Shown here piece by piece: positions 14,972 to 43,701 of a stretch of 44,521 nucleotides of DNA. Both the position numbers and the translations under genes were made by a program. Under the pieces are notes generated by a model. The model was given only the letters and a program-made list of their open reading frames with translations, was not told where the DNA came from and ran no database searches. Each line of letters begins with the position of its first letter. The first letter of the stretch is position 1. The stretch is from Gemmatimonadota bacterium (GTDB lineage: Bacteria; Gemmatimonadota; Gemmatimonadetes; Longimicrobiales; Gaopeijiaceae), in the NCBI GenBank assembly GCA_009840215.1, contig VXOC01000021.1, forward strand, positions 1-44,521, written 5' to 3'.

Positions 14972-17900
14972 TCACTGTTCTCCTGGGAAGGCTCTGGCAG
15001 GTCGGCCGAGCACCTCGAGCAGCTCCGCAACCACTTCGATTTCCCCCTCGTCGTCAGCGCTGATCACGATTGGCTCGAAGTCGGGGTTGACCGGCTCCAG
15101 CGTGATTTCCACATGCCGCCACCCATTCTCGTCCTCGGTCTTTCTGCTTCGATATCGCTTGATCGTGAACCGCTCGCCGGTCTCGGGGTCGATCTCGTCG
15201 GACAACTTCACCAGCAGCGTGCGACCCTGGCGCGACCCGGCCACCGGACGAGCGAACAGACAGTACGAGCCGTCCGGGATCCGGGGATCCATCGACTCGC
15301 CGATCACCTTGGCCACGAACATCCCGTCGCGAAGAGTGCGGCCGGTGTCCAACTCCACCCATTCCCAATCCCGTTCGTCGAGCGAATCGTGAGGATCACC
15401 GAAATCGCCCGCAGCCGCCTTCAGCGGCACCAGCGGTACACACGTCTTGTAGCGGTTTTCGGCCGTCGGCGTCACCAGTCTCAGCTTCGGACGCTGTTGT
15501 GGCCGTGCCGGTTCTTCAGTCGAACCGGCATTCGTGAACCAACTCCGATCCTTCGCCAACTCGCGTCCCTTCCTCCCCTGCCCCAGGTAGATCGCCAAAC
15601 GACGGAAGTGCTTCGCCATCGCATCTTCATCGTCCAGCTCGTTGGCCGGTATCTCGATCACTTCGTAGTCGTTGCCCCGCAGCCAAGCTCGAATGGCCCG
15701 ATCCTTCCTGGCCGTCTCGCGGTTCCCGTGGATGTGTCTGCTCATCCCGTCGAGATAGATGCATACCCCTTTATAGAAGTCGTCGTCCGGGTCGCGGTAG
15801 ATGACGTCCGGTGTCGTGGAGCCCAGCGCTCCGCTCAGCCGAATCCGTTCTCCTCGCACTCCTTCTCCGAAACCGGCTCGCAGGAGCAGATGGCGAAGCT
15901 TCGTTTCGGCCTGGTTGACCGGAACCGCGTCCCCGGAAGGGGAGGATGCCGACTGTTTCGGAGGGATGTCGTGCTGGAAGACGAGCCCCTGGCGCCACTC
16001 CTTCAGCGCATCCAGCGCGACCCGTCGATCGAGCCGGTTATGATAATACGAATTGCGGAAGGTCTGGAGGCAGTCGATGCAGGACGAATCACAAGCGCCT
16101 TCGCAGCTTTCCACCGCCTCGCGGGCGACCTCGACGACCTCGCTAAAGCGCTCGCGCAGGCGGTCCAGCAGGCCTGAGCCTCCGGGCATCGGATCCCACA
16201 GGAGTCCCTGCACCACATCGTTTCCGATCTCCCCGATGACGAGGATCTGCAGGTCCTCCATGTGCATGTCCAGGATCCGCGTGGCGCCGATCCGGAGGGC
16301 CTCGAGCACGCTGTAGGCTTGTGTCGGGTTCGCGCACTCGGGGAGCGAGAGCACGTCGGCCGCAATGTCGGCGTAGAATCCGACCCCGCCCGGTTTGCGC
16401 CCGCAACGCTCTTCGTGCGACTTCCGAAAGCTCTCGCGCTGAGCCTCCGAGGACAGCGGCGACACGCTCTGCCCGCAGATGGCGCAAACCGGGTACCCGA
16501 AGTCGTTTCGGCCCCTGATCACCTCAGAAACGCCGACATTGACGAGACGCATTCGCACACCGCGCCGTAGAAGCAGAGACCGGTCACCCCATCGGTAGGC
16601 CCCACCACCGCTGTGTTGGCCGAGCTCCAAACCGTACACCGCAACACCCAGCTGGAAGCGCAGTTCCTCGTCGTCGGAGATGTGGGAGGTGTGGACAAGA
16701 TCGACGTCGCACACGGCCATCGCGGGCAGGACCTGACTTCCGATTGATGACGACACGCCCGCCGTCGTCTTCTTTACGGCCTGGTGCTCGGCGGACACCT
16801 CGTACCGGGGCATTTCGACGTGTTCGTCGCTGAAGTCCCGGTGGAAGCGGCGGGCGGCGAACCGATGCCCGTTGGCGTAGATGAGGTTGCCCGGGACGTA
16901 TTCGCGGAGCGCGGTGGCCGGGGCTCTCGGAAGTGCGAAGTCCATGGCGCCGTCGAGCCAGAACGGGATCTCCGCCCATGCCACCACATAGCCGCTTTCC
17001 AAGCCGTAGCCGGGCAGGAATCCTTCGGCCGCCAGCACGCTGAAGGTGATCGAGGAATCGTGTCCCTCTGCGTGGCTGCGCCTGGGCTCCCGGCCCTTCA
17101 GTCTGCCGACAAGGCCGTTGCACCGCTTGAAAAGCGCTTCATCCTCGCGATTCAACGTTCCGTGCTTCTCTCGCACGGCGTTCAGACGCTTGATCTGCGC
17201 CATGGCCCAGCGGAGCCGCCGCCGCAATCGCGCCACGACCGCTTCCAACTCGTCCACGAAACGATCCACATGCCGGCGACGCGCCTCGGGCGTCACTACG
17301 TCCGCGTCGGTCTCCGGCCAACCCTGACTGAAAACCGATCGCACTTTGTCGGCCAAATCCGGCGCATTGTGGCGGACAAGCTCCCGCAGCGGCCTGAAAT
17401 CGAAGGGCTCCACCCGGACGACCTCCCCGTCAAACAGGTAGGGCTTGACCCTGCGTGGAATGCAGGTCCCCAGCACTTCGCGTATCTGTTGCCGCTCGGT
17501 CTCCGATCTCGCGGGATCGCCGCCGTACCGGTGAAGAGAGGCGATCACTGTTGCATGGACGTGCTTCGCCACCATGACTTCGTTGCGGAGATTGAACGCC
17601 GGCGGATCGATGCGGCCACCGAGGAGCTTCGGGGGCTCCGCGAAATAGGCGCGGTCGTGCGAAACCGGGCGGCAGTAGGTCATGTTGACCGCCATGCGGT
17701 GTCGGCGTCCGGCGCGACCGGCCCGCTGCCAGTAGTTGGCGGGGAGCGGCGGCACGTTCCGCATCAGGACGGAATCGAGGCGGCCGACATCGATGCCGAG
17801 TTCAAGTGTGGGTGTGCAGACCAGGCTGTTGACGCGGTTCGAGTCCCCCTTGAACCAGTTCTCGAGTTGTTCGCGGCGTTCGTGGGGAACCATGGCGGTG

Positions 17901-20900
17901 TGTTCTTCGGGACGGAGCATCGCGTAGGCTTCGTCAAGGAGCTGAAGGTTGTAGTCGTCCGGGTTCTCGCGGATCCACTTGAGCTCTCCGTCGCAGCGCC
18001 ACGCGGGACAGAGGTTGTGGGGAACTTCGCGGGTGATCGTGCGGCGGCAGTTTCGGCAACGCGCGACGCCGGTGTTCGGGTGCAGCCTGAGGGCGTCCCC
18101 GTTGACCTGGTAGACTCCGTCGAGATTGGGGAGCGCCCCTCCCCTGGCTCCCAGCAGCCGTACCGGCCTGAGGAGGTTCCGCTCGACCAGAAACGCGAAG
18201 AGACCCTCCAGGAAATGGCCGGCCGAATCCTTGGACACGCCCCACTTTCCGGCAATCTGGCGCATCGTGGTGTCGCCGGCGCTGCTCAGCCATTGCATCA
18301 CCCACTTCGCGTCCTCCGTGGGCCCGCGTCGGAGCTTCAATCCCAAAGGCTTGATGAAACCGGGAATGAAACCTTGCTGGACCTCCGGCGAGCCCTCCGC
18401 CCAATACCTCGTGAAGATCTTGAATTCAGGATCCAGCAGTGCTCCCCGGCGGCGGAAATGGTCGAGAACGGCGGCCACGCCGTCCCGAAGACGGTCGGCG
18501 GGGATTCCCAGCCGGAAGGCGTGTTCCTGAATCCAGGGGTGCGAGGGCGAAAGCCCGTCGTACCTCACTCGCATCCGGCCCCAGGGCTCCAAGCCGAGCG
18601 CCTGGCGGGTGGACAGGGTGACTTCGCGCAGGACCTGGATGCGGAGGTACTTCCGGCGCTCCCGCATGTGGCGGCCACCCGACCCCTCGCGGCGCGACAC
18701 CTGCCAGACTTCCGGGAGGAGCGCTCGCGACAGCGCTTCGTCCGCCTCCATGCGGTCATCGAGGTAGCCTGTCAGATCGCCCACCGAACTGCCCGGGTTC
18801 GCGACGATCCCTTCCGCCATCAGCGCCCGGAGCCGGAAGCGGCGAGCGTGATCCTTCATCCACCCCGCCTGGAAGGCCGCGTCCTGGCGGTTGTCGCAGA
18901 AGACGAGCAGTCGCGGCCGCGCCGCGTGATGCACCATGTCCTGGGTCAGGACGTGGACATCCGCCACCGTCACGGCGCGCACCGGCCGGGCCGGCTCGCG
19001 GTAGCGTCCGAACACGCGCCGCCCGTTGGACCCGCACGACAGGCAGCTGGTCAGGATGCCGGGGTTTTTCGGCCTCTGCCGGACCACCTGGAGTTCCACC
19101 GTGTCTCCGCTATGGCCGCAGGAGCGACACCGGTCCATCCGTTCCGGGTGCGCGGCCGCGCACCGGCGGCAGAAGTGGAGAGGCACGGTGCGCGAGGACA
19201 TCGCCGAATCATCGTCGGAACCCGTCTCGCCGATCAGGCGGTCGACCAACACGAGCCGGTTGCCGCCGTTCGTCTCGTCGAGGGATTCCCAGTATCGGCC
19301 GTGTCTGCCGGCTTCTCCGCCTCCAGGATGTTTGCCGGTGAACGAGAAGTCCTTGAGAAAGGCGATGTAGTAGTGCTGGCCGCAGACGGTGCAGGTCGTG
19401 ACGGGAAAGTGAGCGTAGAGGCCGTCGGATTCACTGGATCGCGAGTCCCTTGCGGTCAGGCGCAGCTGGGCGCTTGCCTCGTCCTCCGGAAACGACACCA
19501 CCGCCCCCCCGATGCCACGGACGAATCCGTGGATTACGGGACGCAATAGCGGGCGTTCGTCGTCACGCGCGGCCGCCCCCAGCGTGAGCCAAGCCAAAAC
19601 CTCCGCCTCGGTGACCGGTCTCCCGACAGGCTTCTCGAGCGCATCGGGCAACTCCTCGAGCGGCCTCGGCTCCACGAGCTCCTCGTTCAAACGGAAGACC
19701 AGTTCGTTGCGGGAAAGCGCGGCGTGAAGGGCTGCGGGCCATCCGGTTCCGTCCGGGACATCCAGAGCGCGGCCGGACAGCCGGCGATACACCCGGTTGA
19801 CGGCGGCGCCCGAGGCGTCTTCGTCTTCCACCGCCCGGACGCACTCGTCGAGGATCTTGGAGGGGTCGCCCTGCGGTGTCGGCGGGATCGCGCGGGGGTC
19901 CGCCCAGGTCTCGGCCTCGTAGTCCTCGCCGACCGTTACGACGTCGGTGGCTGGAACGCCGAAGAACCGCGCCGCGAAAGTGCGTGCAGCGTCCGGTTGA
20001 TTGGCGTCGACGATGGTCGCGGAGGTGGCAACGCACCGGGTGTGGCCGGGATCGACGTTGCAGAACGATCTCAGGCGCCGGATCAGGCAGGCCGTCTCTG
20101 CCCCCATGGCGCCCGTGAAGGTGTGGGCCTCGTCGAACACCAGGTAGTCGAGGCGCGCTCCGGCGAACAGTTCGATGTCCTGCTGGCGGGTGAGGAGCAG
20201 TTCGAGCTGCTTGACGTTGGTGAGGAGGATGCGGGGCTGCCTGCCGGGCGTCCGCATGGCCTGGCGGGAGCAGACCTCCTCGGCCGGGTAGACGGTCTCG
20301 CCAAGGCCCCGTGCGCGCGCCTTCTCCACTTCTGCCAGGTAGTCGGCGCTTGTAGATGGGCGGCGGCCAGGCCCCGGCACATCGGCCTCCCGCTCCGGTG
20401 TCTTTCCGACGTAGATGCCGAACGGCACGCCGGTGCCCGCGAGCAGCCCGCGAATCCGAATGAGCTGATCCTCGGCCAGCGCGTTCATCGGGTAGACGAT
20501 TACGGCGCTGATTCCCGGTGCCGCGGACTCGTCCTTCAGGGTGAGGCACCGGCTCACCACCGGGTAGAGGAAGCACTCGGTCTTCCCCGAGCCGGTCCCG
20601 GTGGAAATCAAGGTGGTGCGTCCATCGGCGATCGCCCGGATCGCGCGTTCCTGGTGGCTGTAGAAGTGGGAGATCTTCGATGGGATCCGCTCCGCGAGGT
20701 GGGGATGGATGAGTCCCTCGTCGATCAGTTGCTCTACGGGAGCACCGGCCCGGAAGGGGCGGGATAGGCTGACGTACGGACCGCGGAGGAGGGGTGAGGC
20801 GCGGGTATGGTCGAGCGAGAGGAGACCGCGCATCTGCGCGAGGAGGTGGGGGTCGGAGAAGGGGTAGGCGGTGAGCTGGTAGCGGAGGAAGCTCTTCGCG

Positions 20901-20935
20901 ATCTTCTCGATGTAGGCGACGGGGTTCAGGGCCAT
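14972..20935 (-). CDS. Giant helicase-DUF1998-like protein fused to Vsr-like nuclease and S24 protease (DruE-like)
   Basis: 1987 residues from ATG 20935, which opens a protein-like sequence. Domains: N-terminal SF2 helicase with Walker A STGTGSGKTE (111-120), DEAH box VFDEAH (266-271) and CVATSATI; a cysteine-rich middle (CTVCGQHYY, CRRCAAAH, CRSCGHSG, CLSCGSNGR, CRNCRRT); helicase lobe 2 with TPTLELGIDVG and QRAGRAGRR; a DUF1998-like zinc region ending CEGACDSSCIDCL (about 1450-1650); a Vsr/MTES_1575-like nuclease (about 1675-1790: TTPDVIYRD, VCIYLDGMSRHIHG); and an S24/LexA-like protease (1830-1987) with Ala-Gly at about 1842, catalytic Ser in GESMDP (about 1881) and Lys in FTIKRY (about 1926). 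Size and order resemble Druantia DruE, and the parts match DISARM DrmA+DrmB; the nuclease-S24 tail is unusual. It probably acts on foreign DNA, with the S24 module controlling it by self-cleavage (inference). Confidence 0.88.
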   Translation of the reverse strand: MALNPVAYIEKIAKSFLRYQLTAYPFSDPHLLAQMRGLLSLDHTRASPLLRGPYVSLSRPFRAGAPVEQLIDEGLIHPHLAERIPSKISHFYSHQERAIRAIADGRTTLISTGTGSGKTECFLYPVVSRCLTLKDESAAPGISAVIVYPMNALAEDQLIRIRGLLAGTGVPFGIYVGKTPEREADVPGPGRRPSTSADYLAEVEKARARGLGETVYPAEEVCSRQAMRTPGRQPRILLTNVKQLELLLTRQQDIELFAGARLDYLVFDEAHTFTGAMGAETACLIRRLRSFCNVDPGHTRCVATSATIVDANQPDAARTFAARFFGVPATDVVTVGEDYEAETWADPRAIPPTPQGDPSKILDECVRAVEDEDASGAAVNRVYRRLSGRALDVPDGTGWPAALHAALSRNELVFRLNEELVEPRPLEELPDALEKPVGRPVTEAEVLAWLTLGAAARDDERPLLRPVIHGFVRGIGGAVVSFPEDEASAQLRLTARDSRSSESDGLYAHFPVTTCTVCGQHYYIAFLKDFSFTGKHPGGGEAGRHGRYWESLDETNGGNRLVLVDRLIGETGSDDDSAMSSRTVPLHFCRRCAAAHPERMDRCRSCGHSGDTVELQVVRQRPKNPGILTSCLSCGSNGRRVFGRYREPARPVRAVTVADVHVLTQDMVHHAARPRLLVFCDNRQDAAFQAGWMKDHARRFRLRALMAEGIVANPGSSVGDLTGYLDDRMEADEALSRALLPEVWQVSRREGSGGRHMRERRKYLRIQVLREVTLSTRQALGLEPWGRMRVRYDGLSPSHPWIQEHAFRLGIPADRLRDGVAAVLDHFRRRGALLDPEFKIFTRYWAEGSPEVQQGFIPGFIKPLGLKLRRGPTEDAKWVMQWLSSAGDTTMRQIAGKWGVSKDSAGHFLEGLFAFLVERNLLRPVRLLGARGGALPNLDGVYQVNGDALRLHPNTGVARCRNCRRTITREVPHNLCPAWRCDGELKWIRENPDDYNLQLLDEAYAMLRPEEHTAMVPHERREQLENWFKGDSNRVNSLVCTPTLELGIDVGRLDSVLMRNVPPLPANYWQRAGRAGRRHRMAVNMTYCRPVSHDRAYFAEPPKLLGGRIDPPAFNLRNEVMVAKHVHATVIASLHRYGGDPARSETERQQIREVLGTCIPRRVKPYLFDGEVVRVEPFDFRPLRELVRHNAPDLADKVRSVFSQGWPETDADVVTPEARRRHVDRFVDELEAVVARLRRRLRWAMAQIKRLNAVREKHGTLNREDEALFKRCNGLVGRLKGREPRRSHAEGHDSSITFSVLAAEGFLPGYGLESGYVVAWAEIPFWLDGAMDFALPRAPATALREYVPGNLIYANGHRFAARRFHRDFSDEHVEMPRYEVSAEHQAVKKTTAGVSSSIGSQVLPAMAVCDVDLVHTSHISDDEELRFQLGVAVYGLELGQHSGGGAYRWGDRSLLLRRGVRMRLVNVGVSEVIRGRNDFGYPVCAICGQSVSPLSSEAQRESFRKSHEERCGRKPGGVGFYADIAADVLSLPECANPTQAYSVLEALRIGATRILDMHMEDLQILVIGEIGNDVVQGLLWDPMPGGSGLLDRLRERFSEVVEVAREAVESCEGACDSSCIDCLQTFRNSYYHNRLDRRVALDALKEWRQGLVFQHDIPPKQSASSPSGDAVPVNQAETKLRHLLLRAGFGEGVRGERIRLSGALGSTTPDVIYRDPDDDFYKGVCIYLDGMSRHIHGNRETARKDRAIRAWLRGNDYEVIEIPANELDDEDAMAKHFRRLAIYLGQGRKGRELAKDRSWFTNAGSTEEPARPQQRPKLRLVTPTAENRYKTCVPLVPLKAAAGDFGDPHDSLDERDWEWVELDTGRTLRDGMFVAKVIGESMDPRIPDGSYCLFARPVAGSRQGRTLLVKLSDEIDPETGERFTIKRYRSRKTEDENGWRHVEITLEPVNPDFEPIVISADDEGEIEVVAELLEVLGRPARAFPGEQ

Positions 20936-21120
20936 GGGGTGGGGAGGGCGAGAATCGATGCGGCAAGGTGCCGGTGCGTGGTGCCGAGGAGGAATCTGGT
21001 AGGGGCAATCGGCTGAAGATAGGCCCATTCGTCCATGTATGCGCCCCGGATTCCGCGCGAGGTTGGAGGGGCAGGGCCTCTTCACGGCCGATTCATTCCA
21101 ACTCAACCCGGTCCAAACGG

Positions 21121-22023
21121 TTGGACGACGCTGCCTTCAAGAAACTGTTCTCGCACCCGCGGCTGATCGAGCTTCTCATCCGCCGACACGTGCCAGAATG
21201 GGATGAGGAGATCGAGTACGCGACGCTCGAACGGTGGCCTACCGAATTGATTGACGAACGTCTTCGTCGACGCTATCCCGACATGATGTGGCGCGCCCGC
21301 ACGATCGACGGGACCACGGACATGATCCTGCTGCTGGAGATTCAGGGCAGGCCCGAGCGGCACATGGTCCTGCGCACCACCAGCTACAACGTTCTCGCGG
21401 TCCAGGCGCTGATCGAACACGACAAGGAACTGGGACGAGGCGAGCGGCAACTCGCCGTGGAGTCCCTGGTGCTTCACCACGGGGACAGGCAATGGAATGC
21501 CCCGACCCGCTTGCGCGAACTGTTTCGGGACTCTGCGCCGGATACCTATCGGGTGGTCGAGCCGCTGCCGCCCGACGCGCCGCCACCGGGACCCTTGGAC
21601 CTGCCGCAGATGATACTGGGGCTCGCAGGTGTGGGCGCCGAGACCGACATGATGGAGCATGTGCCGACGCTGCGCCGGGTCGTCGAAGGATGCGGCGACG
21701 AGGACTTCGACCGGTTCATGGCTCGCGGAGTGAAGGCGATGTTACGTTCGAAGGGATTTGACACGGACCAACTGAAGGAGGCGATGACGATGGCCACGGT
21801 GGAGACCGAGTTTCGGCGCGGTTGGGATGCCGTCAGACAAGCGGGCCAACTGACGCTCCTGCGCCGCCAGGCTGCGCGCAAGTTCGGGAGCGGGACCGCC
21901 GAAGAGCTGGAGCGGTTGCTCGCGCGGACCGCGGACGGAGAACAGATGGGTCGAGTGGCAACCGCCATGGTGGACTGTGACGTGGCGGATGACTTTCTGG
22001 CCAGGGTGCGGGGAACCGGGTGA
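21121..22023 (+). CDS. Rpn-family nuclease/Transposase_31-type protein with DUF4351-like end
   Basis: About 300 residues. The recognisable family start is LDDAAFKKLFSHPRLIELL, immediately after a TTG at 21121. The frame stays open back to a GTG at 20968, but that stretch is not protein-like and no start has a clear ribosome-binding site. The PD-(D/E)XK core is visible: E in EIEYATLER, DMMWRARTIDGTTD and the LLLEIQGRPER strand (E-x-Q), then helices, and a C-terminal LTLLRRQAARKFG that fits DUF4351. Rpn proteins are DNA endonucleases linked to recombination and phage defence, often mislabelled transposases. It diverges from the helicase gene 186 bases away, so the two may share control. Confidence 0.8.
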   Translation: MDDAAFKKLFSHPRLIELLIRRHVPEWDEEIEYATLERWPTELIDERLRRRYPDMMWRARTIDGTTDMILLLEIQGRPERHMVLRTTSYNVLAVQALIEHDKELGRGERQLAVESLVLHHGDRQWNAPTRLRELFRDSAPDTYRVVEPLPPDAPPPGPLDLPQMILGLAGVGAETDMMEHVPTLRRVVEGCGDEDFDRFMARGVKAMLRSKGFDTDQLKEAMTMATVETEFRRGWDAVRQAGQLTLLRRQAARKFGSGTAEELERLLARTADGEQMGRVATAMVDCDVADDFLARVRGTG

Positions 22024-24226: not shown

Positions 24227-27200
24227 TCACAGCTCCTCCACCATGTCCGATTGGAAATCCTCCAGCGCGGCCTCGTGACGATACGAGTCCGCGATCTGGC
24301 GCAGCGTCCTCGCTGTTCGGGGGTAGCCCGCGCGGACGGCCACGGCGAAACCGTCATACTTTTCAGCCAGTGCCCGCTCCGCACCACCTCCCGCAGACGG
24401 ATCCTTCGTCACTACTCCACGCGCGTTGTGGACTCCCATGCGGAATCCCCGCTCCAGTTCCGTACTGGCCACATCCTCAATGACTTCCCGGATCACCGCA
24501 CACGGCCACGTCGCATCGGGGTCGTGCGGGCTCGCGCTCAGCATCTGGCCGACCACCTGATGGCCTACGGTGACGCGGCCGGTCCGGGCCAGCGCCGCCA
24601 ACGCCTCCTCCAGCCACCGCCGAAGGCACGCGCGGTCAACCCCACCCCTGTCCCGGCCTCCGGGTATCGTCCTCCATTCCGTGAGTACGGTGTGGCCGCA
24701 CTCGGCCCGTAGCTCGTCCTCCGGGGTCACTACCTCCGGCTCCTCGGTCTCGGCTCGATAGACCAGCGACACGACCTCCACAAAGAAGTCGGGGTCTTCC
24801 GCGAGCAGGCAATGCAGCTCGTTCGGAGGTCTCTGGTGGTGGCGGAGCGCCGGCATCAATTGCCATTCGAGCCGGGCCACTCGTGTCCGGTCGTAGTCGG
24901 CCGACACAAGTGAATCCAGGAGAAAGCCGGCGGAACTGCCGAAATCCCCACTGGGCGAATCGTGATCTCCGCTCGCGGAAGCCGCCGCGGCGAGAACCCT
25001 TGCCACGGTTTCGGGTGATACAACTCCTTTTTCCAATCGGCTTTCGAACGCCAGCAGGTCGGCAGCGACAAAGGGCCGTCCCGCTCCAACCAGGTTCAAC
25101 ACGGCCTCTTCGAGATGCTGGTCCGAGAAATAGCGCTGAGGGATCCTGCGCCAGTAGGCCAACGAGACATCCTCCCCGCAGTTTGCCGCCACCTGCCAGA
25201 TGTGGGGGCGCGTGGGCAGGGCCAAGAGCAGTGCCACCTGTTGTTCGAGCCGGAGCTCCAGATCGTCTCGCCCAAGTTGTCCGATCGTCCACTCGTCGCC
25301 CAAAACCTCGCTTTGGCCGACGACATACCCGAGCGCTAGGCCGGCTAGAGCGCCCTCTTTATCCGCCAAGTGTCGGGAGAGAATCTCGTCCGGGTGCAGC
25401 AGTTCCGGCGGCGTGCGGGCGGCGGCTTTGCCCAACTCGTACGGGTCGGCGACGGCACGAGCCAACGCCCTGAGCTCGTCCGGCCCGCCGCTCTGAAGGA
25501 CTGCCACCACCGCCTCGAGCCTTTCCTTCTCGATTCGCAGCTTCCGTTCCTCCCAAGTGGTCTCGCCCACATCAACACTGTCCGCTGGACGAGGCCGCGG
25601 GGCAAACAACCAGCCGTACAGGGCGACGGGATCGGTGGGAGAAAACCGCTCGCGGACTCCGTCCAGCCGCGCCAGGTACCTCTCCGGCATGGCCCACTTC
25701 GCGGTGCTGTAGGAGCGGTGACGCGCGACGACGCTCCGGAGAGCTTCCCAAATCGCGGCCCGCGCTTCTTCGCCGAGATTGTCCAGGTCGAGGCGCCTGA
25801 GTGCGCCTACTACGAGGTCGTGTTCCCGGCGCGGCAGCGTGTGGAGGTGCTCGAGCAGTCCGGTCCACCGGCGGCCATTCGATCCGGCGGCGTCAAGCAT
25901 CCCCAAGACAACTTCCGACACCGTTCTCATTTGTTCGTCCAGGTCAGCGACCTCGCTGGCATCCGCAGCCCATTCGCGCACCCGCGGTCGCGAAGCCGGG
26001 CGTCCGACGGAGTGCATTTCCGGGAGCATCGACTGCATCACGTGCCAAGCGACGTCGCCGTGAGAGCGGCGCAACCGTCTGAGGACCGCGAGTCTGTCGT
26101 CAAGAGTTGCGGACGTTTGTGGCGACCAGCTTCGGAACACTTCCCTGAGCACTGAGAGCGGACGATAAGCTACCCGGCTACTCGTATTCTCGTCCGGGCG
26201 GAGTTCCGATTCCGGATCGATTCGGTCGAGGCGCGCCAAGACCGGGACGACCCGGCCAAGGTGATCCGGCGACCACGCGAGCACCTCCAGTGCGCGGAGA
26301 AGCCCCGAATGGTAGGCAGATCCGAACATCGGATCACCGGTGGTCACGAAGAGGCTCGCCAACACGGGCTCCGGCTGTTTCAAATCGGCCTCCACTGCGT
26401 CGAGAAAGCAGTCGGGTGCCGCTTCCGCGAGCAGCCGCAGGACACCGGACAGGGATGCCCAAAGCCGCCAATCCTCATTCGCGTTCTCAAGCAGGTTGCG
26501 AACGACCCGCTCCGTAGCGTGGCGGGCCGATGAAATCGCAGTCGGCACTCTACTGCCGCGGGCACCCATGATCGCCAAGCACTTCGCCAGGCCCCCGCGC
26601 AGGAGACCTGAGTACTTGGGCGAATACCCCAATGCTCCCGCCATCCACCGTTGCTCCGGCGGAAGCTCGAACTCCGGGTGAACCGATCCCAGTACAGTCG
26701 TTGCGACCTCCTCCAAGCGTTCGAGATCGTCGTGGCGAATGAACGAACACAGCAGCTCCCACGCGTCACGCGCCGAAACGAGATACCATGCATCGTCCTT
26801 GCGCCTGACCAGCGGATCGCTCCCCCGGCTCCAAGGCAGGAGGGTATCGGCAACTTCCTCGTAGCGTCTCCGTGCGAGCCGCGAGAGGATCTCACGATCG
26901 GGCGAGTCCCGACCGGTTTCCGTGAAGTCCTTCCACGAACCGGCCAGGAGAGCGGGGACCACCCCTCGAGCCACCGCCGGTTTCGACCACTCCGGTCGGC
27001 GGAAACCCGGGCTCGCCGCGATGGAGCGCCGACAGGCAGCAAGACTTCTTCGGGCCAGTCCCGCCATCCTGTATGCGCGGTCGTGGTCGATCCCGGCCTC
27101 CTCCAGCGCTTCGGCCGCGGATTGCCGGTCCAACGGCTCGAGACTAATCACATCGTCCCCCGGTCCCCCGTCGGCTTCGTCCTGGGGTACGACCACGGCG

Positions 27201-28306: not shown

Positions 28307-28354
28307 TGTGGGGTCTTCGTGGCAGGATGGCGTGGATATGGTTGATGATTGACG

Positions 28355-28390
28355 ATAATAGATGACAAATGTACATGTCAATATTTGACA
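28355..28390 (-). promoter_or_regulatory. Palindromic promoter/operator of the HTH-nuclease gene
   Basis: On the minus strand TTGACA (28381-28376) and TATTAT (28360-28355), 15 bases apart, make a plausible -35/-10 pair, with a leader of roughly 40 bases to the ATG at 28306. Two dyads cover it: TGTCAA-TAT-TTGACA (28376-28390, perfect) and TGACA-N8-TGTCA (28363-28380), with ATGTACAT at the latter's centre. They overlap the -35, as expected for repression, and the gene's own product carries an HTH. Confidence 0.55.
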
Positions 28391-28463
28391 TTCGGAACGG
28401 CAGAGGTCTTGGGATGTGTCGAGCGCCGGCCCCGTCAGACGCTGGACACCCAGTTCCCGGACC

Positions 28464-35312: not shown

Positions 35313-38300
35313 CTAGTGGTCTCGGGCACGGTCGTCGCGGCTGAGACCGTAGTCGGCAAGACGAAGTGTCTCAGGGAGATTCCAGCCTTGGCCGCCGTTT
35401 GTGGCGAGAAAAATCTGAATGCCCTTGCTTCGGTCGCCACCGGCGGCCTGAATCCTGGAGTCGAGGTCCCGGAACGCGACGAGCGTGAGGACGGTGTGGC
35501 GCAGTTCGGGATCCAGCTGTCGATCCAAGCGCCAGAAGCCCTTGGGATTCAGCTGGCTGGCCGTGATTCGGGCGGTGGGCAGGTCGCATTGCTCGAGGAT
35601 GCGGAGAAGGTCCGAGTATGACAGTCCGAATGCGGCGGCAATGGTCGCGTCCAAGATGGCTCGGAGCCGGGCCCGTTCCGCAATCGTGACGTCCGTCGCC
35701 GTGCCCAGGGCTTCCGAGTCGGTTCCCGCGAGTTCGATTGCGGCCGGGGCAAACTCGCGAGCGGTCAAGCAGAGGGCTCGTGTGATCTCCGAAATCACTC
35801 CGGACCGAACAACCTCGGCTCCGAGGGGCAGCAGGGGATTCTGTTCTAGGACGTGATAGTCAAGGTGCAGACCCGTCACGCGGCTTCGCGTGACGAAATC
35901 GGAAACCAGAGAACCGAACACGGCGGTTGCGCCGAGTGTGCGCCGAACGCTACCAAGAGCCAAAACTGGTGCCGAGTGACCACACGGCATCCCCGCGAGA
36001 AACGACCCGATCGCGGTACGAGCGTTCGTCGCCGAACCAATGTTCATATGCGCCACTTTCGGCCGCCACGGATCCTCGACCCGCTCGTAGTAGTCCTCCG
36101 CACTCATCAGGAACTGCGGCTCAATCTGCTTCCTCTGCCACGGAATCTCCCTCCACACCGCCCCCCTCCCCTTCCCGCTCACCCACCCCTTCTCGCTAAA
36201 GTCGAACTGGCCGATCATGCGACCTTCGTACAACGGCAACGCCACATCCTCGATCCCCACCCCCTCCCATATCCACTCCGTCCCGTCCCGCGACAGAATG
36301 ATCCCCGCCGGAACCTCCACCCGCGGCACCGGCAACCGGTCATACGGCGGCTGGGCACACCGCACCGCCCAGTCCGTCCGAGCCACGTCCCCCGGCTTCA
36401 ACAGGTGCCCATGCACGAACCGAGCCTCCGCCTCCCGCCTCTCGGGCCCGGCACTCCCGTCGAACAGCCAATCCTCCAGCTCCACCTCCGCCGGTTCAGG
36501 CCGGTCGGAATCGACGCCCAGCTCCGCCCACAGCTCCTCGATGGGACGCCAGTCCCCCTTCAGCCAGCGGCTGTACTCGTCGGGGCGGTAGCCCTTCTCT
36601 TCCCACTTCGGGCGCGGCGGGAAGAGCTTGGAGTCGTTGGTCATGTGGAACTCGGTCGCGTACTTGATGCCCCACCCGTCGGGCCCATCGTCGCCGAGCA
36701 GCACGGAGTTGGCGTAGATCTTCTCCAGGATCTCCAGATCGCGCCGGGACTGGATTTCGAGGATCGCGCGGCTCTTCGGGCTGAACTGCTCCACCTGTGC
36801 GCGCGTGTAGGGCGTGGCGATATCCTCGGCGCGCTCCCAATCATCGAGGCTCCGGCGCATGAAGGCGGTCCGGATCGCCTCGGTCGAACCGCCCTTCTCG
36901 ACGATGACGGGGTTGAACTTGTAGCTGCGGTGGATCGGGAAGATCTTCGCCCCGTTCTCGATCCCGAACAGCCACTCCCAACGACATCGTCGCAGGAACA
37001 GGGTCCGCAGAGCCCCGGTGCCGTTGTCCGAGTACAGCCCCGACGGAACGAGGAACCCCACCCGGCCACCCTTCCTGGCCAACGCGTGGGCGGATTCGAG
37101 AAACAGCTTGTAGAGGTTCAGGTCGGCCGATCCCTGGTGCCGGAACGGGTGCCGCGGATCCGCGAAACCGGACGAGCGGCGCCGCGCGTCGCGCCATCGG
37201 CGATGGAGCCTCATGTTCCCCTTCCCGAAGTACATCCTGTCCTGACTCTTCGACGTCTTCTCGGGATCGCCGAACGGATTGCGCGCCCGGCCCACAAAAT
37301 TCGACTGGGCACGGAAGTCCCCGCAGTAGTCGAGCCACGCGCGCTCCACGCTCTCGTCATCGAAATACTCCGTCTGCTTCCGCAGCGCCTCCTGCTTCCC
37401 GTAGGAGCGGTAGAGGGGGTCGATGTTGGAGAAGAACTCCATCGACACGGGCTTCGCGATGTCCCACGGCGGATTCCCCACCACCGCATCGAACCCGGCC
37501 CCCGCCTCGCTGAACACATCCGGAAACTCCAGCTCCCAGTGGAAGAAGCGATGCCGCGCAGCGACCTCCTTCGCCACCTCCCGCGTCCCCTCCGGCGGGT
37601 CCGCAAAACTCGTTGGCAGTGGCGCGCACCCGATCTCTTCCGCAGGCCAGAACCAGCACGCGCACCACAGGTCCATCGCCTCCTTCAGCGACCGCCACTC
37701 GCTCGACCCCAGCAGCTCCTCCCGATACACATCCGCCCGCTCCGCCGCATCCTGTACCGGCAGCTCGTGCATGTAGGCCAGCACCCCCATCGCATCCCCG
37801 TGCGCCCCGGCCGCCTTCTCCAGCAGGTCCTCCTGAAACAGCGTCCGGCCTTCGAGGAACCGCTTCATGTCGGGCGTCAACACGTCCTTGTGGAACGCCT
37901 TGATGGCCCTCCCCCGCGCGTTCTTCCCGTAGTGCACCCCGTTCGAGTGGTTCCTGTCGCCCCCCTCCCGGTTCTTCCACGCCATCGCCGGATAGTGCTG
38001 GAACTGGTCGAACCAGGCGCCGACCAGCGCGTTGCCGCACTTGACCTTGTGGTCCAGGAACCCGAACGGGAGCTCGCGGTCCATCGTCTCGATCCAGAGC
38101 GAGAGACGGCAGAGCTCGACCGCCAGCGGATCCAAGTCGACCGCGTAGATGCAGCGCTCGACGACGTGACGGCGCAGGCGGGCCTTCAAGAGCCGCTCGA
38201 ATTCGTCGTCGTCCGGGCGGCAAGGGATCTGCTCGTCGCTCAATCGCTCCCCGTCACCCGCCTCCCCGCCGCGCATGCCGAGCAGCCACACGAGCGACTC

Positions 38301-39848
38301 GTTCGCCCTGGCCTCGCTCCGTCCGTGGCGCTGTAGGGACTCGTACAGCGCGTCAGTCAGGAACCGCAGCGCTGCCAGCACGAAGGAGCCGGACCCGCAC
38401 GCGGGGTCGCAGACCTTGAGCGCAAGGATCTCTTCGGGCCGCTTGGGCGTCCATTCGGAAGACGGGGCCAACAGCACCTCGGACCGCGACTTGCCCCCGG
38501 GCGGATCGTACGCGAGCGGGCGGAGCGTCCGCTGCACGGTCGGCACGGCCAGCCCGGGCCGGGTATAGAAACTCCCGGAACCCTTTCGAGTCCCGCCCCA
38601 GCGCGCCAGGTACCACTCGCCTGGGAGAACCTGCTGGTGCACCAGCCTTCGGGCGGTCGCGGCGAGCTTGCCCTCGTAGGTCAGCCGCCGCTCCGGCGTC
38701 ATCCGGCCCTGCGGCTTCTTCGCCAGCCCCGCAATCTCCACGGCCCGGCGCGCCCACCGCTCCGCCCGCGTCCGATACGTCCGCCGCTCGTCCAGCACCT
38801 CCTCGGCGGGCTCCGACCCGGCCCCGGTCCGACCGTCCTCCACTTCCGGTGCCTCCTCGCAGCCCTCCTCATCGCCCCGTCCCTCGTCCCCAGCACCTTC
38901 GGACTTCATCTTTTCGAAGAGTTCGCGAAGCGCTCGCTTGTCCATGTCCTCCAGGCGCGACAGCGGAAGCGCGGGACGGTCCCCGACGGAGAGAAAGATC
39001 ACCGGGTCCCCCACCGGCGCGGTCTTCAGCTCGTAGTCCAGCAGTCCCTCGTAGACGACGCCGATGTACTCCGAAGACAGGTCGGAGAAGTCCACGGGGA
39101 CGGGCACCCACATTCCCCCCAGTTTCTGCTGTATTCTCGCCCGCGTGCGCATGAGAAGACGCAGCATGTCGTACACCTCCTGGTCGGAGACGCCCCCGCC
39201 GCCGAAGCTCGCGGTCTCGAGGACGTGCAGCGCGCGGGAGACCCCGTCCCCGGCGTCGGGACGCCCTGGGGCGAACAGCTCGCCTCCGTACGCGGCGACC
39301 GGAAGGTCGGGATGATGCGAGCCTTCGTTCACCAGCCGGAAGAGCGCCAGAACGCGCGGCCACGCCCCGTAGGACTCGCTCATGGCGTCGCCCCGGTTCG
39401 CCATGCGCTCAAGCTGGCCGAAGAGCCCGTTCAAGCCGTAGCCCTCGTCGTACACGGTGTTGTCGCGGGGAAGCAGGTCGCGCGACTCCGCGAAGAGCAC
39501 GACGACCGCGCGCATCGCGACCCGGCAGGCCGCGCGGTAGATGTCGGCCGGCGCCACCCCGTCTTCACCCGCCGCGAGCTCCTTCAGCGCCTCGCCGTGG
39601 CTCCTGACCAGGATCTCCACCGCCTCGCGCACGCGCTCCCCGAGCACTTCGGACAGCTCCGCCTGCCCCTTCCGGGTGTCCCGGATGGCCTGGAGCAGCG
39701 GCGAAGCGGCTCCCTCTTCCTCCGGCGTCCAGAGTCTCGGGCACAGAAGCGTCCGCAGGGCCGTGACCTGAGCCGTCAGCTCGCCTTCCTCGAACCAGAG
39801 GTCGGCGTCCCATTCGCACGAGGCGTCGTAGTCGAGACCCGCGAACAC
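35313..39848 (-). CDS. Eco57I/DrmMI-like N6-adenine DNA methylase, core fragment
   Basis: 1511 codons of open frame from a GTG at 39848. Motif I is VCDPACGSGSFVLAALRFL (residues about 465-485) and motif IV FDAVVGNPPWDIAKP (about 780-795), the adenine-N6 methyltransferase pair used in Eco57I-type and DISARM class 1 (DrmMI) enzymes; LKCGNALVG-type and VGFLVPSGLYSDNGTGALR elements follow. In DISARM the methylase marks host DNA. The N-terminal 160 residues are in another frame (39865-40344) because of an extra base in a GGG run at 39863-39865, and the C-terminal 120 are beyond an amber codon at 35313. A repaired gene would span 40344-34941 and encode about 1800 residues. As it stands the enzyme is probably inactive unless the lesions are sequencing errors. 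Confidence 0.85.
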   Translation of the reverse strand: MFAGLDYDASCEWDADLWFEEGELTAQVTALRTLLCPRLWTPEEEGAASPLLQAIRDTRKGQAELSEVLGERVREAVEILVRSHGEALKELAAGEDGVAPADIYRAACRVAMRAVVVLFAESRDLLPRDNTVYDEGYGLNGLFGQLERMANRGDAMSESYGAWPRVLALFRLVNEGSHHPDLPVAAYGGELFAPGRPDAGDGVSRALHVLETASFGGGGVSDQEVYDMLRLLMRTRARIQQKLGGMWVPVPVDFSDLSSEYIGVVYEGLLDYELKTAPVGDPVIFLSVGDRPALPLSRLEDMDKRALRELFEKMKSEGAGDEGRGDEEGCEEAPEVEDGRTGAGSEPAEEVLDERRTYRTRAERWARRAVEIAGLAKKPQGRMTPERRLTYEGKLAATARRLVHQQVLPGEWYLARWGGTRKGSGSFYTRPGLAVPTVQRTLRPLAYDPPGGKSRSEVLLAPSSEWTPKRPEEILALKVCDPACGSGSFVLAALRFLTDALYESLQRHGRSEARANESLVWLLGMRGGEAGDGERLSDEQIPCRPDDDEFERLLKARLRRHVVERCIYAVDLDPLAVELCRLSLWIETMDRELPFGFLDHKVKCGNALVGAWFDQFQHYPAMAWKNREGGDRNHSNGVHYGKNARGRAIKAFHKDVLTPDMKRFLEGRTLFQEDLLEKAAGAHGDAMGVLAYMHELPVQDAAERADVYREELLGSSEWRSLKEAMDLWCACWFWPAEEIGCAPLPTSFADPPEGTREVAKEVAARHRFFHWELEFPDVFSEAGAGFDAVVGNPPWDIAKPVSMEFFSNIDPLYRSYGKQEALRKQTEYFDDESVERAWLDYCGDFRAQSNFVGRARNPFGDPEKTSKSQDRMYFGKGNMRLHRRWRDARRRSSGFADPRHPFRHQGSADLNLYKLFLESAHALARKGGRVGFLVPSGLYSDNGTGALRTLFLRRCRWEWLFGIENGAKIFPIHRSYKFNPVIVEKGGSTEAIRTAFMRRSLDDWERAEDIATPYTRAQVEQFSPKSRAILEIQSRRDLEILEKIYANSVLLGDDGPDGWGIKYATEFHMTNDSKLFPPRPKWEEKGYRPDEYSRWLKGDWRPIEELWAELGVDSDRPEPAEVELEDWLFDGSAGPERREAEARFVHGHLLKPGDVARTDWAVRCAQPPYDRLPVPRVEVPAGIILSRDGTEWIWEGVGIEDVALPLYEGRMIGQFDFSEKGWVSGKGRGAVWREIPWQRKQIEPQFLMSAEDYYERVEDPWRPKVAHMNIGSATNARTAIGSFLAGMPCGHSAPVLALGSVRRTLGATAVFGSLVSDFVTRSRVTGLHLDYHVLEQNPLLPLGAEVVRSGVISEITRALCLTAREFAPAAIELAGTDSEALGTATDVTIAERARLRAILDATIAAAFGLSYSDLLRILEQCDLPTARITASQLNPKGFWRLDRQLDPELRHTVLTLVAFRDLDSRIQAAGGDRSKGIQIFLATNGGQGWNLPETLRLADYGLSRDDRARDH

Positions 39849-39864
39849 CAGCCTCCACTGGCGG

Positions 39865-40376: not shown

Positions 40377-40396
40377 ATGTAATGAAGACATTACAT
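40377..40396. promoter_or_regulatory. Perfect 8-bp inverted repeat between helicase and methylase genes
   Basis: ATGTAATG-AAGA-CATTACAT is a perfect dyad in the 51-base gap between the DrmD-like stop (40396-40398) and the methylase start (40344). Its CATTACAT arm and the following GTCATGTGGAGTGTACATTTGC match, in order, the operator blocks at 12115 and 6948. It may control the methylase separately from the helicase or be a mobile regulatory repeat. Confidence 0.5.
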
Positions 40397-43300
40397 TAAG
40401 TCATGTGGAGTGTACATTTGCCGCCCCGCGGGCCGGCGATAGGGGGCAGCCTCACCTCGATGGTAACCGGAAACACGCCTGCCTCGCCCGAAAGCGCGAA
40501 GCGGGCGGGAAGCAGGTGATCCAGGATGCGGGTTCGTTCACGCCTCAACTGCTCGCGGATTTCGTCGTAGTGCGCGCGACGGCGCTCGATTTCCGACTCC
40601 TTCTCCTCAATAGAGCGGTCCAGCTTGTCGAGACTGCCCGCCTCGTCGAAGAGCTGGCCTTGTTGCCGCTTGACCTTGAGCGCCTCGATCTCGCGATTCA
40701 GCCGACCCACCGTGGACTGCTCGATCAGGGCTGACACTTCTCCCTCTCGCTGACGGTAGCGCTGGTCCTCGCGCCTCCGGTCCGCGGCCTCATCGGTTCC
40801 CAACTGGTCTCGCAGCCCCCTTGTGAGACCGGCCTGATACTCGCGCAGCCAGCGCTTCAGGTCGCGATCTGCGTCCACGAGCAGGTCGCGGGCGCGGTCC
40901 CAGTCGGCCGGGTTCGTCGTACCTCGCCCCCCACCAAGTGCCGCAAATGACGTATGCGGGAGAGGACGGCCGATTCGCCCGTTCCGCAGCGGAAACGCGA
41001 CGGTCCGCACCCAGTGGTGGAAGCTCTCCCTTAGCTCGTTCACCCCGAGTTCCTCGACACTGAGCAGGATGAGGCCTTCGGCGCCCGGCGGAACCCCGCC
41101 GATCCGCACCGTCCACCGCGACTTCGCGCCCTCGCCGGGATAGCGCAGGCGCGTGAGCAAACCAAGGGCGCGCTTCATCAGCGGATGCGCCAAGTGCATC
41201 AGCAGCGCGTCGGGACGCGTCTTGAACACATCCAGATCTCCAAGCCGCTCAATGAACGGGGCGGGGCCGAACGCAATCTTGCGGACCGGCTCCAGTGCAC
41301 CCGTCGCGCTTGCGGCGGGTCGGCGAACAGATGAGTCGATCACGCTTTTCCACTCCGCAAGCTCGGGATGCCGGATCCTGTACAGATCGGGCTCACCCGC
41401 GTCATCGAGCTGCGGCCGCGGACCCGAGACGGCCATTGCGGCTTCAAGCGTCTCTGCCATGACCGGCGCACTTAGCCCGATGGCGTCGGCCAGCGCCCGG
41501 ATCGCCTCGCCGGCGCCAACCTTCCCGTTGCCGGTCGCTATCGTGGTGTCGAAGCCAGTCATCCGCTCGGCGCGCGCGTTGTCGACCCCGAGGTCCAAGT
41601 CGTTCTGGACGACACCACGATCCTCCCCCACGATCAAACGGCGCCGGACGGCATGGTCGAAGATTTCGTTGGCGGAACCCAGATCCTCGCGGATTCCGTC
41701 GGCCTTGCGGATCACGTAATCCAGGAAGCGGATGTCCGGATCGGCGGTGCTGTCGAAGTGGTGGACGGTCACGTCGCGGGCCTGGCCGTAGCGGTCGAGG
41801 CGGCCGTTGCGCTGTTCCAGCCGCGACGGGTTCCAGGGGCAGTCGTAGTGCAGGAGATAGCGGGCTGTGCGATGCAGGTTGAGTCCTTCGGAAGCCGCAT
41901 CGGTGGCGACCAGGATGCGGACCCGGGCGCCGGGGTCGTTGAAGGCGTCCTTGACGCTCTCGCGCTCCGTGGCGCCCATGCCGCCCGGACCTCCCACCCC
42001 GAACAGCGTCAGGATTCTGTCGGCCGGATACCGGATCCGCAGCCGGTTGGCGAGGTAGTCCAGGGTGGTCTTGTACTCCGTGAAGACGATCAGCCGTTCG
42101 TCGTCCCGGAATCGGCCGTCGCGGCGCAGCAGCCTCTCGATGAGCGCGATCAGCTGGTCGAAGCGGGCGTCGGCGGCGGGCACCTGTTGCGTCGGCGGCG
42201 GTCCGGCGGGATCGAAACCGAGGGCTTCGACGGCGACCTGGATCCGGTCTATCTCTGGCGTGAGGTCGTCGCGGTAATTTCGCAGCCAGCCGCCGACGAC
42301 AGTGGCCGCGGTGGCCTGCCGCTGCTGCGCCTCGCGGTCGTCGCCGGTCTCCTGCCCGAGAACCCGTTCCGCCACCCCCACGTCGGCATCCGAGGCCGTG
42401 CCTTCCTCCATTCCCCGCATGGTACGGTGCCACGAGTCGGCGAACGCGGCCGGACAGGAGAGGAGGCGCTTGCCGAGAACCTCGACGGCGAAGGTCCCGG
42501 CCCGGCGGCGGCCCTGGGTCCCAGTGGCGATGAGTCCTCCTACGGAGCTGCGGAACGTATCGAAGGCGGCGGTCAGTTCCGCTTCGAGGGGATTGCTTGC
42601 GAGGGGGAGTGCTTGCGGTGGCTTCCGCGAGCAAAATCTCGGTCCGGCGGTACCCGCGTTGATGTCGCGCTTCAGCCTCCGTATGACCAGGTCGTCGACA
42701 CGCTTGCGCATCGCCGGGTTCATCTCGCTTGTGCGTGCGAAGCGCACCGGATCCAGCATTTCGAGCAGGCCGGTGAAGGAGCGGGTGTGGCCGTTGTGCG
42801 GGGTCGCGGAAAGGAACAGACGGTGCTCGAAGCGCGGAGCGATGAGCCCGAGCATCCGGCAGAGCTGGCTGTCCTCGCCGAAGGACGCCGGCATGAGGTT
42901 GTGGCATTCGTCCACGATCAGCAGGTCCCATGGGAGATGGGGAGATCCGTCCGGTGTCCTGCACGCGGAAAGAAACTGTTCTTGTACGTCCGGCTGTCGG
43001 AGGTAGTGGAAGGACGCGATTATCCGGCTGAACGAGCGCCATGGGTTGGCGTCGATTCCGAGCCTCCGGCGAAGCTTCTCGGTCGCCTTGCGGTCGACCA
43101 CCTCGAAGGGCAGCGAGAACTTCTCCCAGAGTTCCTCCTTCCACTGGTCCCGGAGCGCGGCCGGCGTGAGAACGAGGACACGGCGGATGCGGCGCCGGAG
43201 CAGGAGCTCGGTGAGGATGAGTCCGGCCTCGACGGTCTTGCCGAGGCCCACGTCGTCCGCGATGAGGAGGCTGACGCGGGGCATCCGCAGGGCCTTCAGA

Positions 43301-43686
43301 AGGGGAACGATCTGGAAGTCTTCGACGCGGACGCCCCCGTGGAAGGGGCTCGCGATGGGTCCGTGGCGCTCCGTGCGGCCTTGGCCGTCGAGACCCAGGT
43401 AGGGGGAGAGGGCGGTCCAGCGCGCCGCCCGCAGCAGGGCGTCGAAATCGGCTGCGGGCATGGGGTCGGTGTCGTAGGGGTCGGGGAGAGCAGTGGGTTC
43501 GAGCAGCGTCCTGTCGGGTTCGAGTTCCCAGAGAAGCCGCTCGGCGGTGGGCGATCCGCCGTCCTGGTATTCGAGGTGGACGAGGTGAACGCGTCCGTTC
43601 TCGCCGTCGAAGGGGGCGACGGAGGTGACCGTGCCGCGGCGGTTGCGGACGGTGGCCAGCATGCCGGGGCGGGGGATGCGGGTCAT
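40396..43686 (-). CDS. drmD: DrmD-like SNF2-family helicase (DISARM-type)
   Basis: 1096 residues from ATG 43686. Motif I is ADDVGLGKT (143-151), motif II DECH (259-262), motif III LFLSATPHNGH, and lobe 2 has LIVFTEYKTTLDYL, ATDAASEGLNLH and PWNPSRLEQRNGRLDRYGQ. This is the Swi2/Snf2 layout. N-terminal residues 1-60 form a small beta domain and the C-terminus (about 900-1060) a charged coiled coil. Size, motif set and position just before an Eco57I-type methylase fit DISARM class 1 DrmD, a translocase that helps recognise unmethylated foreign DNA. No adjacent drmA, drmB or drmC is present, and the methylase partner is broken. The coding frame itself is intact. The symbol is by similarity of arrangement, not a database match. 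Confidence 0.82.
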   Translation of the reverse strand: MTRIPRPGMLATVRNRRGTVTSVAPFDGENGRVHLVHLEYQDGGSPTAERLLWELEPDRTLLEPTALPDPYDTDPMPAADFDALLRAARWTALSPYLGLDGQGRTERHGPIASPFHGGVRVEDFQIVPLLKALRMPRVSLLIADDVGLGKTVEAGLILTELLLRRRIRRVLVLTPAALRDQWKEELWEKFSLPFEVVDRKATEKLRRRLGIDANPWRSFSRIIASFHYLRQPDVQEQFLSACRTPDGSPHLPWDLLIVDECHNLMPASFGEDSQLCRMLGLIAPRFEHRLFLSATPHNGHTRSFTGLLEMLDPVRFARTSEMNPAMRKRVDDLVIRRLKRDINAGTAGPRFCSRKPPQALPLASNPLEAELTAAFDTFRSSVGGLIATGTQGRRRAGTFAVEVLGKRLLSCPAAFADSWHRTMRGMEEGTASDADVGVAERVLGQETGDDREAQQRQATAATVVGGWLRNYRDDLTPEIDRIQVAVEALGFDPAGPPPTQQVPAADARFDQLIALIERLLRRDGRFRDDERLIVFTEYKTTLDYLANRLRIRYPADRILTLFGVGGPGGMGATERESVKDAFNDPGARVRILVATDAASEGLNLHRTARYLLHYDCPWNPSRLEQRNGRLDRYGQARDVTVHHFDSTADPDIRFLDYVIRKADGIREDLGSANEIFDHAVRRRLIVGEDRGVVQNDLDLGVDNARAERMTGFDTTIATGNGKVGAGEAIRALADAIGLSAPVMAETLEAAMAVSGPRPQLDDAGEPDLYRIRHPELAEWKSVIDSSVRRPAASATGALEPVRKIAFGPAPFIERLGDLDVFKTRPDALLMHLAHPLMKRALGLLTRLRYPGEGAKSRWTVRIGGVPPGAEGLILLSVEELGVNELRESFHHWVRTVAFPLRNGRIGRPLPHTSFAALGGGRGTTNPADWDRARDLLVDADRDLKRWLREYQAGLTRGLRDQLGTDEAADRRREDQRYRQREGEVSALIEQSTVGRLNREIEALKVKRQQGQLFDEAGSLDKLDRSIEEKESEIERRRAHYDEIREQLRRERTRILDHLLPARFALSGEAGVFPVTIEVRLPPIAGPRGGKCTLHMT

Positions 43687-43701
43687 GAGGCTACACACAT
43701 A

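Follow-up and report, generated by a model that had tools for sequence, protein, structure and literature searches.

A putative LexA-like S24 tail on an ARMADA-type helicase-nuclease of a Gemmatimonadota bacterium, with relatives on several classes of restriction enzyme

ARMADA systems are defined by a DNA methylase and two helicases, one of the YprA family (ArmC) and one SNF2/BrxHII-like (Bell et al. 2025, PMC12458937), and the main text of that paper already describes within them YprA helicases carrying a fused Vsr nuclease that is predicted to be active. Two further defence systems, Druantia and DISARM, also come close to the gene described here, which was found on contig VXOC01000021.1 (assembly GCA_009840215.1) of a Gemmatimonadota bacterium; the whole stretch of 44,521 nucleotides is referred to below as the window. 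The product of this gene is filed here as a predicted ARMADA-type helicase-nuclease with a new regulatory tail, an S24 domain. The reading that we favour, with a rough probability of 0.45, is that this tail is a portable self-cleaving switch which would provide the enzyme with built-in restriction alleviation via RecA.

The gene (14972-20935, minus strand) is a single open frame of 1987 amino acids (aa) with 0 internal stops, and its ATG start is supported by the N-terminus MALNP[VI]AY, common to loci L033-L036. The protein shows the helicase motifs Walker A (STGTGSGKT, residues 111-119), DEAH (268-271), TSATI (304-308) and QRAGRAGR (1070-1077), together with seven CxxC motifs and a C-x3-C-x3-C-x2-C cluster, CEGACDSSCIDC, at residues 1611-1622. 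The chain is thus predicted to join a YprA-type superfamily 2 helicase, an MZB (MrfA Zn-binding)/DUF1998 cysteine cluster, a Vsr-like nuclease and an S24 domain, and Pfam and motif positions bear out the original prediction, made from the window alone, that one chain of 1987 residues combines helicase, nuclease and zinc cluster with an S24 domain that has a Ser-Lys pair and an Ala-Gly site. That prediction also knew of no described system with this order, and the literature searched, most subscription papers lying outside it, yielded no account of the same fusion; in word searches of the accessible texts of PMC12458937, PMC12839542, PMC10853773, PMC3702460, PMC12707154, PMC3874165 and PMC13192584, neither a restriction enzyme nor a YprA enzyme with an S24 domain came up.

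The search for the same fusion in other genomes, which had been proposed with the prediction, recovered it complete in one genome of the same genus at 96% identity (G153, whose contig was met again as L033/G298 and counted once) and, at about 66%, in three records from Acidobacteriota. The ratio of nonsynonymous to synonymous substitution rates (dN/dS), computed for the tail in four pairs, came to 0.26, 0.21, 0.21 and 0.10, which indicates purifying selection on the tail. A chance fusion or a frame artefact is ruled out by the conservation of the fusion and of the catalytic set, and by the low dN/dS of the tail.

The S24 identity of the tail was studied with several profiles. Peptidase_S24 was matched at residues 1839-1968 (Pfam 27.1 bits, cut-off 23.3), and the same cut-off was passed by 17 of the 18 other tail-bearing proteins scanned, L177 not being listed at E 0.001. 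The 53 tails that were aligned, the most distant of them 37% identical to the window tail, share 11 invariant columns, among which are both alanines of the candidate site (P2 and P1) and the Ser, the Met and the Lys; the alignment was drawn from 66 tail rows, with the exclusion of rows not spanning the profile and of six others, among them L176, the sole tail with Val at P2. When it was compared by hhalign with 29 LexA/UmuD-like control domains, a probability of 97.8% (E 1e-12) was obtained, and the two sides agreed in register at the AAG, SM and K positions. All 22 matches of the 53-tail profile in the PDB at E<=1 were S24 proteins (14 LexA, 4 cI and 4 UmuD; best 4.6e-4), and a smaller 4-tail profile performed worse, with an unrelated reductase as top match (0.098) and LexA at 0.43. 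The phage repressor family phrog_4 was matched by 3/3 tails tested (1e-10 to 1e-13). The structural comparison proposed alongside was less successful: AlphaFold, run from 11 sequences, gave a predicted local distance difference test score (pLDDT) of about 45 over the tail and no usable model of it, and fold searches with such low-pLDDT models found LexA chains weakly in one case (at E 0.2 or higher), while the 50 matches listed in another contained none. Because these models are unusable over the tail, its S24 fold is taken from the sequence, by which the assignment to a LexA/cI-type domain with a complete catalytic set is firm.

Residues were counted across the tails over the rows that reach each position. 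The catalytic Ser is present in 65/65 and the Lys in 64/64, and at the candidate site P1 is Ala in 63/63, P2 is Ala in 62/63 and P3 is A, V, I or L in 63/63; P1' is Gly in 61 of 63, with Ser instead in L060 and L154. The predicted large fragment would end [AVIL]AA in 62 of 63 tails, except for the hosts in which the S24 domain is not C-terminal. The tail resembles LexA, cI and UmuD in its Ser-Lys dyad, its Ala-Gly site and the flanking motifs, all in register, and differs in its setting, since the known members are small whereas the tail ends or interrupts enzymes of about 700-2000 aa. The features of the window are collected in Table 1.

Table 1. Positions of the fusion protein, its predicted parts and the accompanying helicase and methylase in the window.
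Feature	Position	Strand	Evidence or size
YprA-family (ArmC-like) helicase - MZB - Vsr-like nuclease - S24 protein	14972..20935	(-)	1987 aa
DEAD stretch, residues 93-180	20396..20659	(-)	Pfam 73.2 bits
Helicase_C stretch, residues 1014-1078	17702..17896	(-)	Pfam 40.6 bits
MZB (DUF1998-type cysteine cluster), residues 1546-1623	16067..16300	(-)	Pfam 34.9 bits
Vsr-like nuclease region	15569..15982	(-)	invariant motifs in alignment, no own Pfam match
S24 (LexA/cI-like) tail, 162 residues as aligned	15002..15487	(-)	Pfam, profile-profile, PDB profile search
Candidate self-cleavage site Ala1842-Gly1843 in LKAAAG	15407..15412	(-)	tail alignment + motif scan
Catalytic serine Ser1881 (GESMDP), predicted	15293..15295	(-)	tail alignment + motif scan
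Catalytic lysine Lys1926 (FTIKRY), predicted	15158..15160	(-)	tail alignment + motif scan
Eco57I-type DNA methylase (ArmB-like position)	35313..39848	(-)	PADLOC type IIG 1245 bits, DrmMI 394.8
SNF2/RapA-like helicase (ArmA/DrmD-like)	40396..43698	(-)	NCBIfam DrmD 626 bits, cut-off 610

The host of the tail appears to be an ARMADA-type YprA helicase-nuclease and fits ARMADA better than DISARM or Druantia, because the YprA gene shares its strand with genes for an SNF2 helicase and a methylase. In this it resembles the Type I-like ARMADA, where a Vsr-type nuclease is fused to the YprA helicase and accompanied by an SNF2/BrxHII-like helicase and a methylase (PMC12458937). It differs in the S24 tail, the main text of that paper having 0 matches for S24, LexA, peptidase or protease, and in that the methylase and the YprA gene of the window are about 14 kb apart, with other genes between them. 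Homologues of the three genes share one contig and one strand in the window, in G298, G300, G029 and G303 and on a plasmid of Synechocystis sp. B12, whose copies are in broken frames; G299 and G301 have their SNF2 helicase on a separate contig. The window methylase matched PglX models weakly (NCBIfam at most 23.3 bits, PADLOC 23.2), type IIG being the best model.

The original prediction had called the helicase DruE/DISARM-like. The best PADLOC models for the 1987-aa protein were DruE3 (342.9 bits) and DruE1 (342.6 bits), in 3-5 separate stretches, the library being that of 2023, with no ARMADA model among the matches to this protein. The likeness to DruE lies in the YprA-family helicase with a DUF1998-type cluster; Type III DruE, however, carries two PLD domains according to the main text of PMC12458937, whereas the Pfam scan of the window protein showed no PLD domain and Vsr-like motifs are present instead, followed by the S24 tail, and its gene is accompanied by the SNF2 helicase and the methylase. 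As for DISARM, the SNF2 helicase exceeds the NCBIfam cut-off for DrmD, the methylase scores with DrmMI, and the DrmA model gave 51.4 bits with the 1987-aa protein (PADLOC). In DISARM, by contrast, the DUF1998-type part (DrmB) is a separate gene from DrmA (PMC12458937, main text), and membership is ruled out by the fusion of the MZB/DUF1998-type part into the helicase chain. The nearest named system is ARMADA.

The nuclease region was aligned in 14 of 15 prepared sequences, the window included. The motifs E, P-D, Y-x-D-G and H, together with a D further on, showed no variation in 14/14, and one of the aligned proteins is a Planctomycetota YprA whose C-terminus is assigned to DUF559 by Pfam. The Pfam scan of the 1987-aa protein listed no family over this region, and a fold search with its predicted model (pLDDT about 51-88) gave no PDB match at E<=0.001. 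The nuclease predicted as Vsr-like thus keeps that name by motif only.

The tail is optional on YprA proteins. Relatives that lack it and end just past the nuclease are found in G029 (53%), G303 (66%) and on the Synechocystis plasmid (47%), and a tree of 16 YprA rows (quick method) needs three changes for tail presence or absence. In G303 the YprA protein has no tail, yet an HsdR-like protein elsewhere in the same genome bears one.

What could be seen only with other genomes, and the original prediction lacked, is the recurrence of the tail on many restriction-enzyme classes. Five groups of genomes were surveyed, each centred on, and counting, a genome already known to bear the tail. At E<=1e-15 it was found in 4/298 genomes of the window's phylum, 5/398 in the phylum of a Gammaproteobacteria record (G303), 26/297 in that of a Vicinamibacterales record (G300) and 15/294 in that of a Planctomycetota record (G306), these four counts being lower bounds because scoring was limited to a maximum of 9-12 first-look candidates in each genome; with the 53-row profile it was found in 4/118 genomes in the phylum of a Nitrospirales record (G305). 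Hosts were then counted in 65 loci, 18 in hand and 47 fetched from the surveys (excluding G777:C321, G953:C171, G1275:C24, G1145:C218, the fragment G139:C124 and three new Nitrospirales-group survey matches), with host parts grouped by blastp and Pfam run on group representatives only. The tail is tied to a restriction/defence-type motor or methylase in 58 of the 65, some of them fragments (e.g. L150, L164, L166, L167 and L175). HsdR-like hosts (type I R subunit) account for 22 loci, YprA hosts for 15, Schlafen-group-3 helicases for 8 (7 clustered, and L044 with its tail in a shifted frame) and a ResIII cluster for 6 (three EcoEI-like R subunits, of which L173 alone was scanned with Pfam, two HIT-PLD-ResIII helicases and one ResIII helicase). 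Four hosts are type III Res-like, with an N6_N4 methylase adjoining L154, L156 and L177 (three of the four were checked, L155 being outside), two are type ISP, and one is an ARMADA-type methylase; at L057, a Planctomycetota locus, the tail is on the methylase and the YprA helicase of the same gene run is without it. The remaining 7 loci are two DUF3037 proteins, L170, for which no host family was found, and the short frames L039, L059, L060 and L162.

A tree of 60 tail rows (quick method, 26/57 inner branches weak) shows 16 host-class changes among 10 groups, the minimum possible being 9, and its starred branches force at least 2 changes for YprA and at least 3 for HsdR. In contrast to these large hosts, the S24-family matches for 60 Pseudomonadota genomes were all in frames of <=349 aa, among the matches listed. 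No relative of the tail was detected in the viral contigs and phage records searched, and the plasmid search gave one record, from Halomonas, in which the tail frame is shifted from the helicase frame and has no gene annotation. These data suggest that the S24 tail is a portable module on several restriction-enzyme classes. A wider reading, to which we give a little less than even odds, is that one mobile LexA/cI-type domain was repeatedly recruited by several ATP-dependent restriction classes, in which it would serve as a switch for self-destruction or alleviation in response to damage; these classes are type I (including the insertion in the nuclease region), type III-like, type ISP, the ARMADA helicase or methylase, and Schlafen-group-3 helicases.

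Other arrangements were observed among these loci. At L172:5466-9251 and L174:5472-9173, HIT, PLD-like, ResIII helicase and S24 parts are in one chain, and at L177:853-8813 an SNF2 helicase, an N6_N4 methylase and a ResIII-S24 protein form one gene run. The S24 frame of L060:8516-12395, which is degenerate and reads Ala-Ser at the cleavage site, stands directly before genes for an OLD-type ATPase and a UvrD-like helicase, an order that we take to be Gabija-like.

We infer that the tail acts by self-cleavage triggered by RecA, with an off direction completed by proteolysis. The intact protein would restrict foreign DNA, RecA filaments would trigger self-cleavage at Ala1842-Gly1843, and the cleaved helicase-nuclease would end ...LKAAA, a LexA-like end open to proteolysis, after which ClpXP-type proteases could remove it. 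Cleaved LexA ends ...VAA and ssrA ends ...LAA. In cleaved LexA a C-degron for ClpXP is exposed (PMC5742171, citing Neher 2003), and alleviation of EcoKI works through ClpXP as well, although no degron was found in that enzyme (PMC4231737, text available). Both in that alleviation of type I enzymes and in the one proposed here, a DNA-translocating restriction motor would be silenced by proteolysis (PMC4231737, PMC11109961, PMC3874165, PMC12707154), although there an untagged translocating HsdR is attacked through an unknown degron, whereas in a tailed enzyme the cleavable switch would be built in. The window's genome does encode RecA. We regard switching the enzyme off as likelier than releasing the nuclease.

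Several observations weigh against this proposal. EcoKI alleviation is stated to be no function of the SOS response (PMC11109961, text available). The motif [VI]AA-G is also read at 23/29 ordinary S24 control sites, so the AA may merely be a preference of the protease. In the EcoEI-like R subunits (L173, L176 and L178) the S24 domain is near the N-terminus, and the AA end would remain on the small piece. The two DUF3037 hosts (L159:4998-5786 and L163:4998-5780) are small and not restriction enzymes, and downstream of their genes a mannosyltransferase-like protein, an unidentified protein and a transporter are encoded, none of them defence-looking. Apart from the tail, the window's genome (94.6% complete) has a single S24 match, the LexA-like L083 (G000:C35:13997-14221). 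In L083 the position of the catalytic Ser is occupied by Arg (GDRM) and an AAG site is missing from its usual place; it may be a LexA that cannot be cleaved, and because it looks dead, the usual SOS circuit is not shown in this genome. Finally, the tail-less proteins of G029, G303 and the Synechocystis plasmid suggest that the core left by cleavage could be an active enzyme.

These last proteins, which end nearly like the cleaved product, are also what favours the opposite direction, in which the tail would restrain the helicase-nuclease and RecA-triggered cleavage, upon phage replication or DNA damage, would free the active enzyme; that DruE engages replication intermediates containing single-stranded DNA (PMC13192584, text available) agrees with it too. 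We consider it unlikely, having in mind that the new C-terminal end resembles a degradation signal, that type ISP and methylase hosts have no obvious nuclease beside the tail to release, and that a cut in EcoEI-like hosts would split the nuclease region instead of freeing a nuclease. In L173 the Pfam HSDR_N match starts only at profile position 113, after the S24 domain; this domain thus appears to be inserted into the nuclease region, and a cut there would split the nuclease; the first part of that region presumably bears the catalytic Glu.

LexA/UmuD-type S24 domains dimerise and bind RecA filaments. The tail might accordingly serve mainly to dimerise the enzyme or to bring it to RecA filaments on broken foreign DNA, with cleavage slow or secondary, and several hosts are indeed DNA motors that depend on the encounter with a partner (PMC7049714, PMC4666363, texts available). 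For such a role alone the Ser, the Lys and the Ala-Gly site would be dispensable, yet almost all tails long enough to include these positions retain them, and we hold this role somewhat less probable again than the release of an active nuclease. That the tail is a phage-repressor fragment, fused by chance and decaying, is highly improbable: some tails are on short or truncated frames (L039, L059, L060, L162), L060 has lost the cleavage-site Gly and the tails match phrog_4, but the dN/dS of 0.10-0.26, the conserved catalytic set, the same arrangement in Gemmatimonadota and Acidobacteriota and the recurrence in genomes sampled from five phyla all speak against it.

The alleviation switch, if it is real, would bear on a wider problem. 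A restriction enzyme is a danger to the cell that carries it, and the means by which such enzymes are silenced once DNA has been damaged are not settled, the EcoKI degron being unidentified (PMC4231737, text available). A self-cleaving tail on several restriction classes would be one answer to it, and RecA would regulate immunity directly, at the level of protein and not of transcription, in a general layer not described so far. The tail also offers a sequence signature for finding more defence enzymes.

The surroundings of the gene in the window were also inspected. Two SOS-box patterns were in no excess in the window (3 found vs 9.4 expected; 24 vs 18.3, with 14/100 shuffles having as many). 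The methylase frame has 1511 aa, as against 1796 aa in a 96% relative (L067), and is overlapped by an upstream frame at 39565-40344, for which reasons a break of the frame may lie close to the 5' end of the gene. Between the methylase and the YprA gene, the segment 28853-32814 encodes NYN-domain, NACHT-pentapeptide and Schlafen AlbA_2 proteins, likely further defence genes. A 1465-aa protein at 24227-28624 has HTH_3 as its sole match and no PADLOC match, and in G298 a 96% relative of it adjoins the YprA gene. The divergent neighbour of the YprA gene in the window, at 20968-22023, is a YhgA-like putative transposase (Transposase_31).

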